Source: Acidobacteriota bacterium
GTDB taxonomy: Bacteria; Acidobacteriota; Polarisedimenticolia; J045
NCBI GenBank assembly: GCA_003696075.1
Contig: RFHH01000107.1
Span: forward strand, 1 to 49,769
Reading direction: 5' to 3'
Length of the DNA: 49,769 nt
The translations under genes and the position numbers were made by a program. Positions 43,727 through 47,166 of the stretch are shown piece by piece (position 1 is the stretch's first letter; the number at the start of each line of letters is the position of its first letter). Below the pieces are notes generated by a model. The model saw only the letters and a program-made list of their open reading frames with translations. It made no database searches and had not been told where the DNA came from.

Positions 43727-45115
43727 TCAGCGCCAGACCTTCGACAGGAACTCCTGCACTTCCGGGACGCCCCCCTGGAGGATCAGGTAGCCGTCGTGCG
43801 GTTCGCGCGGCGTCATCTCGCCCGCGATCGGGGTCTTCATGAGTTCGACGACCTTCTCCGGATCTCCGGGGTGGAGGCCGAGAGCCCAGCCCAGCTTGAT
43901 GTAGGCCACCTCGGGGAGCATGTTCCCGAGCGGCACGACGCCGAGTCCGAGGATTTCCCGCCCCGTTTCGTAGACGTACATCTGCACGAAGCCCCACAGC
44001 GTCTGGAGCGTCATGAAGACCAGCACGCCGGCGTCCCTGGCCCGCTCGAGCGCGGGATAGACCTTGCGGTTGACGTGCCCGAGCCCGGTGCCGGCGATGA
44101 CGATGCCCTTGTAGCCGCGCTCGACGAGGGCGTCGATGACGTCGGGCTGCATGTTCGGATAGTAGTAGAGCAGCGTCACCCGCTCGTCGAAGGCCGCCCG
44201 GATGTCGACCTCGCGGTCGTTGCGGCGCGGCGCCCAGTCGTCCTTCAGAAGCCGCATCTCTCCGGGTTCGATCGTCGCCAGCGGGATGTCCCCGATCGTT
44301 CGGAATGTGCTGCGATAGGAGCTGTGCATTTTGCGCACGCGGGTCCCGCGGTGGAGCAGGTTGTAACGATCGGAGGTGGGGCCGAACATGCAGACCATGA
44401 CCTCAGCGATCTGTCCGTGCGCGGCCGCCCAGGTGGCGTTGATCAGGTTGCGCGCGGCGTCGGAGGACGGGCGGTCGGACGACCGCTGGCTGCCGACCAT
44501 CACGATCGGCACCGGCGGGCGCTGGACCATGAACGACAGGGCAGCGGCGGTGTGGTGCATCGTATCGGTGCCGTGCCCGATGACGATCCCGTCGTAGCCT
44601 TCGCGGATCGCCTCCCCGATGCGCTCCGCCAGGACGAGGTACTGCTCGGGGCCCATGTTCTCGGAGAACACGCCGAACAGTTTCTCGGTCTCGAGGTTGC
44701 AGATGTCGGCCAGCTCCGGAACCGAGCCGTAGAGCTCTCCCGGGCTGAACGCCGGAATCACCGCACCGGTACGGTAGTCGAGGCGCGACGCGATCGTGCC
44801 GCCCGTTCCGAAAAGCTTGACCTTCGGTTTGGCTGGATCGACCGGGAACTCCTGCTCCGGGATCCGGTAGTGCGCTTCGCGGTAGCCGGTCTTGACCAGT
44901 TCGACGATCGTGTCGTAGCGCACGCCGATGTTGTAGCCGCACGAGAGCTTGATCACGAGATGCTCGGGATCGGCTGTCTCGGAGCGGGGGAGGATCAGCC
45001 CCTCGAACCGTCCGCGCGTGGTCTCGGCGATCACCTCCGACCACACGGTGACGCCGAAGCGCTTCATCACCGAAAGCAGCGGATCGCGGTAGCCTTCGTA
45101 GGGGTCCTTCGCCAT
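43727..45115 (-). CDS. gatD: Glu-tRNA(Gln) amidotransferase subunit D (archaeal type)
   Basis: This 462-residue protein is an asparaginase-like glutaminase with the extra N-terminal barrel (about 1-85, TRGRFEGLILPR and LVIKLSCGYNIGV) that separates GatD from ordinary asparaginases. Catalytic residues are Thr107 (FGTGGTIAS), Thr183-Asp184 (GHGTDTMHHT) and Lys262 (RKMHSSYRSTF). GatD releases ammonia from glutamine or asparagine for transfer by GatE, making Gln-tRNA(Gln) from Glu-tRNA(Gln). Its ATG overlaps the gatE stop by one base (TGATG), so the pair is coupled. GatDE is normally described as archaeal, and most bacteria use GatCAB. Confidence 0.92.
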   Translation of the reverse strand: MAKDPYEGYRDPLLSVMKRFGVTVWSEVIAETTRGRFEGLILPRSETADPEHLVIKLSCGYNIGVRYDTIVELVKTGYREAHYRIPEQEFPVDPAKPKVKLFGTGGTIASRLDYRTGAVIPAFSPGELYGSVPELADICNLETEKLFGVFSENMGPEQYLVLAERIGEAIREGYDGIVIGHGTDTMHHTAAALSFMVQRPPVPIVMVGSQRSSDRPSSDAARNLINATWAAAHGQIAEVMVCMFGPTSDRYNLLHRGTRVRKMHSSYRSTFRTIGDIPLATIEPGEMRLLKDDWAPRRNDREVDIRAAFDERVTLLYYYPNMQPDVIDALVERGYKGIVIAGTGLGHVNRKVYPALERARDAGVLVFMTLQTLWGFVQMYVYETGREILGLGVVPLGNMLPEVAYIKLGWALGLHPGDPEKVVELMKTPIAGEMTPREPHDGYLILQGGVPEVQEFLSKVWR

Positions 45116-47166
45116 CACCGCGCCTCCAGCCGGCCTTCCATGGCCGACACGAGTCGCGCCCGCACCTCGCGCGCGGGCACGCGGCCCCTCACCCCGGCGA
45201 GGGCCGTTCCCATCGCCCAGCGCAGAGCCGCCTCCGGATCGCGGGTGCGAAGTCGGTCCAGCTGCTCGAGCGCGCGGGCGACCGCCTGGTCGGCGAGGCG
45301 TCCCCCGGCGTCCGGTTCCAGCTCCGCCAGCAGAGCTCCGGGGTCGGCGTCCGGGCTGTCGGTGACGCGGGCGAGGGCCAGCTCGAAGCCCTCGGGAAGC
45401 AGCCGGCCTGCCGCCAGCGCCGCCGCCAGCGGGCGCACCCGGTGCGGCGGGGGGAGGGAGGGGCGGCGGGGGGCGAGCACGCGCGCGAAAGCGGCGGCGA
45501 CCCGACGGGCCGTCTCGGCCGGCAGCGGGCCGAGGGCGTCGAACAGGTCCGCCCAGGGGGAGGCCGCCAGCCGGGCCGCCGCCCGCTCGTCGAGGCCAGC
45601 CTCCCGGTACCGGGACTCCCGCTGCCAGGGCCGCTCGGGGAGTCCGGCCTCGATGCGGTCGACCCACTCGTCCGGGATCGGGAGGGGTGGGGTGTCGGTG
45701 TCCGGGTACATCCGGTCGGGTCCGGCCAGGATCCGCTCGAAGCCGGTCGACCCGTCGCGATGGGCCTGGCGCGTCTCGGGCGGGACACCCTCGAGAGCGT
45801 CCTGAGCCCGGATGAAGATCTCGCGGACCGCGGTGTCGAGATCCGCCGGGTCGCCCCAGACGACCACCAGGGCATCCTCCGGATCGGCCTGCAGGGCGCG
45901 GCGGAGGCGCCTCCAGGTGGTGCGGCTGAGCCCGTAGCCCGCCAGATCGGAGTGCACCATGAAGGGCCTCGCGGTCAGGCAAGCGATGACGCGGACGCGC
46001 TCGGCGAACTCGAAGGCGAACGTGTGCCGGGGCTGGGTCGGGCGCGAGAGCAGACCGCCGAACCGCGGCAGCCGCAGCGCCGCGACGGCCTCCCCCCGTT
46101 CCAGCGCCTCGGCGAGCGGCCTGTACCCCGCGCCAGCGAGGAGGCGCTCCGCCCGAACGGCGAGGGGAGAGACGTCCCAGGCCGCGCCGCCGGCCGGGAT
46201 CTCCAACATCTCTCGTTGCACGCCCCGCCGCCGCAGCTCCTCCCGGATCTTCAGCAGTTCGAGCTGGCGAAAGGCCTCGATATGGGCGAGGAGAGGCAGC
46301 CGCCGGTGATTGTCGACGCCCTTGATCTCGATTCGCCGGCCGCCCGCGATCGAGACGTTGACATCCTGGCGCGCCGCACCGGGCCCGCGCCGGACCTTAC
46401 GGCAGCAGCGGGTCGTGCGAGCGACGAGCCGCGCCCCGGCCTGCAGCTCCCACGGCGTCAGCAGGTCGGGTTCGGTGACGACCTCGGTCAACGGCATGCC
46501 GAGCCTGTCCGTCCGGAAGGTGATCCGGTGCCCGATGTCGGAGACCTCGCGGCAGGAATCCTCCTCCAGCGACAGCTGGCGGATCCGGAGCAGCTTGTCC
46601 ACGCCCAGCTCCGGCTCCCGGAACGGGATCGCACCCGAGAGCCCGACCATCGCCGTGCGCTGGAAACCGGTCGGAATCGAGCCGTCGAGGTACTGCTTGC
46701 GCATCACGTGGAGTTCGGAGACCAGCTTCAGGTCGAACAGGCGCGCGATCTCGAGCGCGATCAGGACCGCTTCGCGGTCGATCTCGAACGGCGGCGTGTC
46801 GTCGATCTCGTAGGTGCAAACCGTTCCGCGTTCCAGCAGATAGACGATCTCCTTCTTCGTCTTGAACTCCATCAGAGCGCAACCGTCGTATTCCCCCAGC
46901 TCGCTGAGGGTGGGACGCATGTGACGGAGCACCTCGGCGTCGTAGCGGTCGACGTATCTCCCCGCGGGGCAGCGGCAGAAGAGCTTGCTCTCGGTCAGGA
47001 GCTGCTGGTGCACCTCCAGCCCGGACATGAAGTTCAGCGCCCGGTAGTCGTCGGGCGTCATCTCGTCGAGGTCTCGCGCCGGGAAGTCGAGAGGGGGCTC
47101 GCGCTCGGGGTTCAGGTCGGCCGGGGGCCGGACCCCGGCCGCGGCGCGCGGCGTGTCGGTTGCCAT
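45115..47166 (-). CDS. gatE: Glu-tRNA(Gln) amidotransferase subunit E (archaeal type)
   Basis: The 683-residue protein belongs to the GatB/GatE family. [19 protein letters not shown] opens the kinase-like core, and [17 protein letters not shown] and [13 protein letters not shown] are further core blocks. Unlike GatB it has the AspRS-like insertion ([17 protein letters not shown] to GVPPETR), followed by [12 protein letters not shown] and a YqeY-like tRNA-binding tail. GatE phosphorylates and amidates Glu on tRNA(Gln). The ATG at 47166 follows GGGAGA and leaves a short, poorly conserved N-terminal extension before [18 protein letters not shown]. It is the first gene of a two-gene operon with gatD. 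Confidence 0.92.

Follow-up and report, generated by a model that had tools for sequence, protein, structure and literature searches.

A question is raised by the gatE-gatD gene pair found in a window of 49,769 nucleotides, which is one contig (RFHH01000107.1) of a genome of the bacterial phylum Acidobacteriota: how does a GatDE amidotransferase come to be encoded there and what might it do? GatDE has been said to occur only in archaea, in reviews of 2021 and 2022 (PMC8007984, PMC9499178), and this restriction has been used to argue about the last common ancestor and the archaeal lack of GlnRS (PMC9499178). From homology and structure prediction the pair is very probably a genuine operon, encoding an amidotransferase, of a bacterial GatDE clade, and this clade is widespread in bacteria. 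The genome is a metagenome-assembled genome (MAG) of 3.29 Mb, 98.56% complete and 0.24% contaminated, which is placed in Acidobacteriota by GTDB. Both genes are intact and lie on the minus strand in the order gatE then gatD, as follows:

45115..47166, minus strand: gatE (683 aa, read from 47166 to 45115), amidotransferase subunit that includes the GAD insertion and a YqeY-like tail; ATG at 47166, stop TGA at 45117-45115
45787..46197 (approximate), minus strand: GAD or AspRS-like insertion of GatE, model residues ~324-460
45139..45315 (approximate), minus strand: end of the GatE tail, resembling YqeY (model residues ~618-676)
43727..45115, minus strand: gatD (462 aa, read from 45115 to 43727), ammonia-releasing subunit of asparaginase type, bearing the N-terminal barrel; its ATG shares one base with the gatE stop

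GatD exceeded the cut-off of the NCBIfam model gatD_arch (TIGR02153) by a wide margin, with 496.8 bits against 324, and its N-terminal barrel (Pfam GatD_N, PF18195, 3.4e-11) and asparaginase N and C domains (PF00710 and PF17763) were all matched. GatE scored 380.8 bits against gatE_arch (TIGR00134, cut-off 319.55) and narrowly missed a second GatE model, NF003107 (446.3 bits, cut-off 456); against the GatB model TIGR00133 it reached 92 bits with a cut-off of 314.8, and it is thus GatE and not GatB. Comparison with the Pyrococcus abyssi chains by phmmer gave E values of 2.5e-115 for GatD (1zq1_A) and 3.2e-94 for GatE (1zq1_C), and chance is excluded as the origin of the GatD and GatE matches by their scores. 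For GatE, an AlphaFold model was computed from 47 sequences; it had a mean predicted local distance difference test score (pLDDT) of 87 and was closest to the two solved archaeal GatE structures (VIA Z 35, for 2d6f_D, and 31). Residues 324-460 of the model superposed on AspRS chains (VIA Z ~12) and Pfam placed the GAD domain (PF02938, 5.9e-5) at residues 352-443, whereas the YqeY-like tail was seen in the model, where residues 618-676 superposed on YqeY 8xjg (VIA Z 7.0, 53 residues, root-mean-square deviation 2.0), and in the full-length hidden Markov model alignment; Pfam PF02637 gave no match in the window GatE, the sequence being too divergent. The first-pass annotation, made from the sequence, had credited both subunits with their GatDE-specific parts, and this was borne out for the GatD barrel and the GatE insertion, and for the tail by structure and alignment though not by Pfam. 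Its statements that the active sites are intact and the genes coupled also held: the GatD motifs GTGGTIAS, HGTDTM and VRKMHSS are kept across 29 aligned relatives, the catalytic residues of the GatE cradle are conserved in the 47-sequence alignment, and the one-base overlap of gatE stop and gatD start reads TGATG. By homology, GatD would split asparagine or glutamine at an asparaginase-type centre, the ammonia released would pass to GatE, and GatE would activate the side-chain carboxylate of the amino acid on a mischarged tRNA and then amidate it.

The distribution of GatE proved to be broad. Within Acidobacteriota 41 of 297 genomes, from about 17 families, carry GatE over the curated cut-off, as do 7 of the 8 other sampled genomes of the window's own family. 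Among GTDB species, each represented by a single genome, relatives of GatE are encoded at no fewer than 569 loci, the best 80 of which are all bacterial and come from about 15 phyla, although these 80 were picked by likeness to the window and the lack of archaea among them is uninformative about archaea. Represented are Krumholzibacteriota, Gemmatimonadota, Planctomycetota, Ignavibacteria and other Bacteroidota, Cloacimonadota, Aminicenantes, Fermentibacteria, KSB1, Myxococcota, Zixibacteria, Marinimicrobia, WOR-3, Caldisericia and others, and in most loci gatD adjoins gatE. The view of GatDE as an archaeal hallmark standing out on the window contig had therefore to be given up, as GatDE is widespread in bacteria and forms there a clade of its own, remote from archaeal GatE.

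Phylogenetic analysis was based on 89 GatE rows, 86 bacterial and three archaeal (those of Pyrococcus and Methanothermobacter, and the opening part of a broken copy from Natrinema), and a branch of ~1.5 changes per site parts the bacterial from the three archaeal sequences. At 32 positions, many of them in the catalytic domain, bacterial GatE shows conservation of 95% or more that the three archaeal GatE do not share, and three conserved catalytic-domain residues (Tyr159, Pro165 and Val230) are common to bacterial GatE and the window genome's GatB, the archaeal three again differing. The window GatE falls in a fully supported group of seven, where it is joined by two genomes from its family, by one unclassified bacterium and by Krumholzibacteriota, Gemmatimonadota and Planctomycetota. 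A single clade of all Acidobacteriota GatE was rejected (approximately unbiased test, p-AU 6e-10), and GatE has therefore spread between bacterial phyla; the tree requires no fewer than 14 switches between Acidobacteriota and the rest. The phylogeny that had been proposed as a check on the first reading thus upheld a wide bacterial GatDE and went against its strict vertical descent: GatDE is spread among bacterial phyla out of an old bacterial stock which, on a tree with three archaeal sequences, may or may not go back to archaea. Another genome of the window's family, G223, holds a quite different GatE type (L022), and the presence in one bacterial family of two very different types, L022 as against L023 and L031 (genomes G223, G295 and G231), is a sign of replacement or transfer. 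A search of plasmids for further GatE yielded only the broken archaeal copy, an unannotated gatE frame interrupted by a frameshift on a megaplasmid of Natrinema thermotolerans (L119, CP031304.1, 703689-710971); either this is a surplus or decaying gatE lying off the main chromosome, or the sequence is in error.

Attempts to assign a function must rely on what else these genomes encode. The window genome has, elsewhere, GlnRS (TIGR00440, 778.9 bits), AsnRS, GluRS, GatA and GatB, the true GatB being on another contig (C74), and GlnRS is present in 54 of the 59 distinct GatDE-bearing genomes sampled. An enzyme tasked with Gln-tRNA is expected to avoid GlnRS. As GlnRS stands beside GatDE nearly always, GatDE is not a needed route to Gln-tRNA(Gln), and the search of the genome for gatA, gatB and glnS gave no indication of the unusual route to Gln-tRNA that had been suggested for it. 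Most of the GatDE-bearing genomes read, the window genome included, carry in their GluRS Arg358 (Thermus numbering), which we take to be the mark of a discriminating enzyme.

Where GlnRS exists, the remaining known job of GatCAB is tRNA-dependent asparagine synthesis (PMC4206432), and the best guess is that bacterial GatDE stands in for GatCAB. The reaction would be the conversion of Asp-tRNA(Asn) to Asn-tRNA(Asn), and thereby the making of asparagine, as GatCAB does in GlnRS-bearing bacteria. GatB is missing in 23 of 41 GatE-positive genomes of the phylum, compared with ~34 of 256 GatE-negative ones (Fisher 8.5e-9, uncorrected for kinship), and in 31 of the 59 distinct GatDE-bearing genomes. 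One family (f49) is split in this respect, genus g75 having GatDE without GatB and genus g119 GatB without GatDE; of the members tested for GlnRS it is present in G072 (g75) and absent in G178 (g119). Both asparagine synthetases, AsnA and AsnB, are absent from 13 of the 31 genomes with GatDE and no GatB, as against none of a small set of eight genomes with neither (p 0.035), and as against 9 of 89 published genera that have AsnRS and GlnRS and no GatCAB (PMC4206432 Table 2; p 2.4e-4). Three of the 31 (G280, G298 and G307) also show no AsnRS, which MAG gaps can explain, and if this absence is true GatDE would be their sole way to Asn-tRNA. A closed chromosome is available for one relative, G306 (Ignavibacteria, CP054675.1), which encodes GatDE, GlnRS, AsnRS and one AspRS and no AsnA or AsnB, and tblastn found no GatA or GatB homologue in it. 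A 667-aa glutamine-amidotransferase-like protein of G306 was considered as a candidate AsnB and rejected, since it proved to be a class II glutamine amidotransferase domain fused to an N-acetyl sugar amidotransferase (WbuX-like; L279:16486-18486). The window genome itself has GatAB and neither AsnA nor AsnB, and GatDE may there share the making of asparagine with GatAB. Asp-tRNA(Asn) is the leading candidate for the main substrate of bacterial GatDE, though a little less likely than not, a tentative assignment drawn from gene content. Slightly more doubtful is the wider proposition that a distinct clade took up Asp-tRNA(Asn) in place of Glu-tRNA(Gln) as its substrate and repeatedly replaced GatCAB as the tRNA-dependent maker of asparagine across ~15 phyla.

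A number of caveats must be applied to the asparagine reading. The characterised archaeal GatDE is described as a Glu-tRNA(Gln) amidotransferase (PMC9499178). AsnA or AsnB is present in 18 of the 31 genomes with GatDE and no GatB, the control set of eight was hand-picked from the phylum search, most of the genomes are MAGs, in which gene absences may be gaps, and the genomes share ancestry. The Arg358 sign is imperfect, for it is carried also by G010, a genome without GlnRS. The route requires a non-discriminating AspRS, of which the N-terminal AspRS residues give no clear sign, and the comparison of neighbouring genes found no AspRS partner gene near the GatDE loci. The single AspRS of the window genome is of bacterial type with Phe at the Leu/His position, and other GatDE-bearing genomes have mixed residues there. 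This residue is no decisive sign of loose tRNA specificity, as G010 shares Leu with presumed discriminating enzymes; G010 is without AsnRS and hence its AspRS must be non-discriminating if the genome is complete.

Other explanations have to be set against a GatDE of bacterial stock acting on Asp-tRNA(Asn). It is very improbable that an archaeal operon was recently transferred into the window lineage or that the contig is archaeal contamination. GatDE is known as a family of archaea, after which both NCBIfam models are named, but the nearest relatives of the window GatE are bacterial (Krumholzibacteriota, Gemmatimonadota and Planctomycetota) and the archaeal GatE lie 1.5 changes per site away, albeit with only three archaeal sequences. 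The GC content of gatE-gatD is ~72-73%, against 68-75% over the window, with no compositional difference, and the neighbours are of bacterial types (an ABC transporter with auxiliary proteins, a 5'-3' exonuclease, an ACT domain, an acylphosphatase and DUF1207), just as the first-pass annotation had described flanks and composition. Contamination of the contig is unlikely because gatE occurs so widely in the window's own family, and family-wide presence, matching GC and the GatE tree together led to the rejection of contamination or recent import. Of the earlier reading, the GatDE operon stood as complete, intact and part of a real bacterial genome, whereas import from archaea particular to the window contig did not stand.

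It is also unlikely that bacterial GatDE is used in the canonical way, amidating Glu-tRNA(Gln) alongside GlnRS as a second route or as repair of mischarged tRNA(Gln). Its family identity with archaeal GatDE, from phmmer and the curated models, is consistent with such a use, as is a Marinimicrobia genome (G314) in which neither GlnRS nor GatB was over the cut-off and GatDE could be the only route to Gln-tRNA. Against this, GatDE shows no avoidance of GlnRS in the genomes sampled, GluRS is mostly of the Arg358 type, and no bacterium was known with both Gln-tRNA routes (PMC4206432). Archaeal GatDE reads A1-U72 of tRNA(Gln) (PMC9499178), whereas this pair was not seen in G306, both tRNA(Gln) of which have U1-A72, as does its tRNA(Asn). 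Genomic context speaks against Glu-tRNA(Gln) amidation as the main role. Rather unlikely too, if not quite to the same degree, is a substrate of another kind, such as some special aminoacyl-tRNA, or a role in a step that depends on tRNA but is not part of translation. The clade-specific conserved positions of GatE would suit it, and so would the presence of GatDE where GatB, GlnRS and AsnRS are already encoded, as in the window genome; on the other hand no conserved gene besides gatD adjoins gatE in the compared loci that would mark a pathway, and no orphan tRNA was apparent among the 42 tRNAs of the closed G306.

Several observations concern the synthetases themselves. The possibility of a dedicated second GluRS as partner of GatDE was rejected, GluRS copy number not tracking GatDE. 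A second GluRS-like protein of 472 aa is encoded in the window genome (L006:1486-2901, contig C4), which scored 273 bits against the GluRS cut-off of 290, fell below the GluQRS cut-off as well, and has Ser in place of Arg358 and a C-terminal half that has diverged. Partial matches to the GatB model in G299 (L041) and G298 (L040), from Planctomycetota and Gemmatimonadota, adjoin GlnRS within one long open frame and suggest a YqeY tail fused to GlnRS.

No report of bacterial GatDE was found in the open-access literature, subscription papers being outside the search; such genes would already receive the names GatD and GatE from the NCBI models and may be annotated yet undiscussed. The archaea-only statement is contradicted by a bacterial clade of GatDE that is broad, mobile and found alongside GlnRS, and the argument built on it about the last common ancestor and the absence of GlnRS (PMC9499178) needs a new look. 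If Asp-tRNA(Asn) is the substrate, bacteria would have a second, independent means of tRNA-dependent asparagine synthesis; should it be Glu-tRNA(Gln), there would be bacteria with both Gln-tRNA routes, a situation unknown in 2014 (PMC4206432).

Comparison with the archaeal enzymes of Pyrococcus abyssi (1zq1) and Methanothermobacter thermautotrophicus (2d6f) shows full-length subunits with the same GatD active-site motifs and the same domains, namely the barrel and asparaginase of GatD and the cradle, GAD insertion and tail of GatE. Unlike them, bacterial GatE is a separate clade with its own 32 conserved positions, bacterial GatDE coexists with GlnRS, which archaea lack (PMC9499178), and tRNA(Gln) in the closed genome is U1-A72. 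With the GatCAB of Bdellovibrio, Deinococcus and Thermus (PMC4206432) bacterial GatDE shares a setting with GlnRS and AsnRS in which asparagine synthetases are often absent, and its likely role, tRNA-dependent asparagine synthesis, would be the same. It differs from GatCAB in that the ammonia subunit is the asparaginase-like GatD and not the amidase-like GatA, in having no GatC, and in that GatE, as its score against TIGR00133 indicates, is only a distant relative of GatB.
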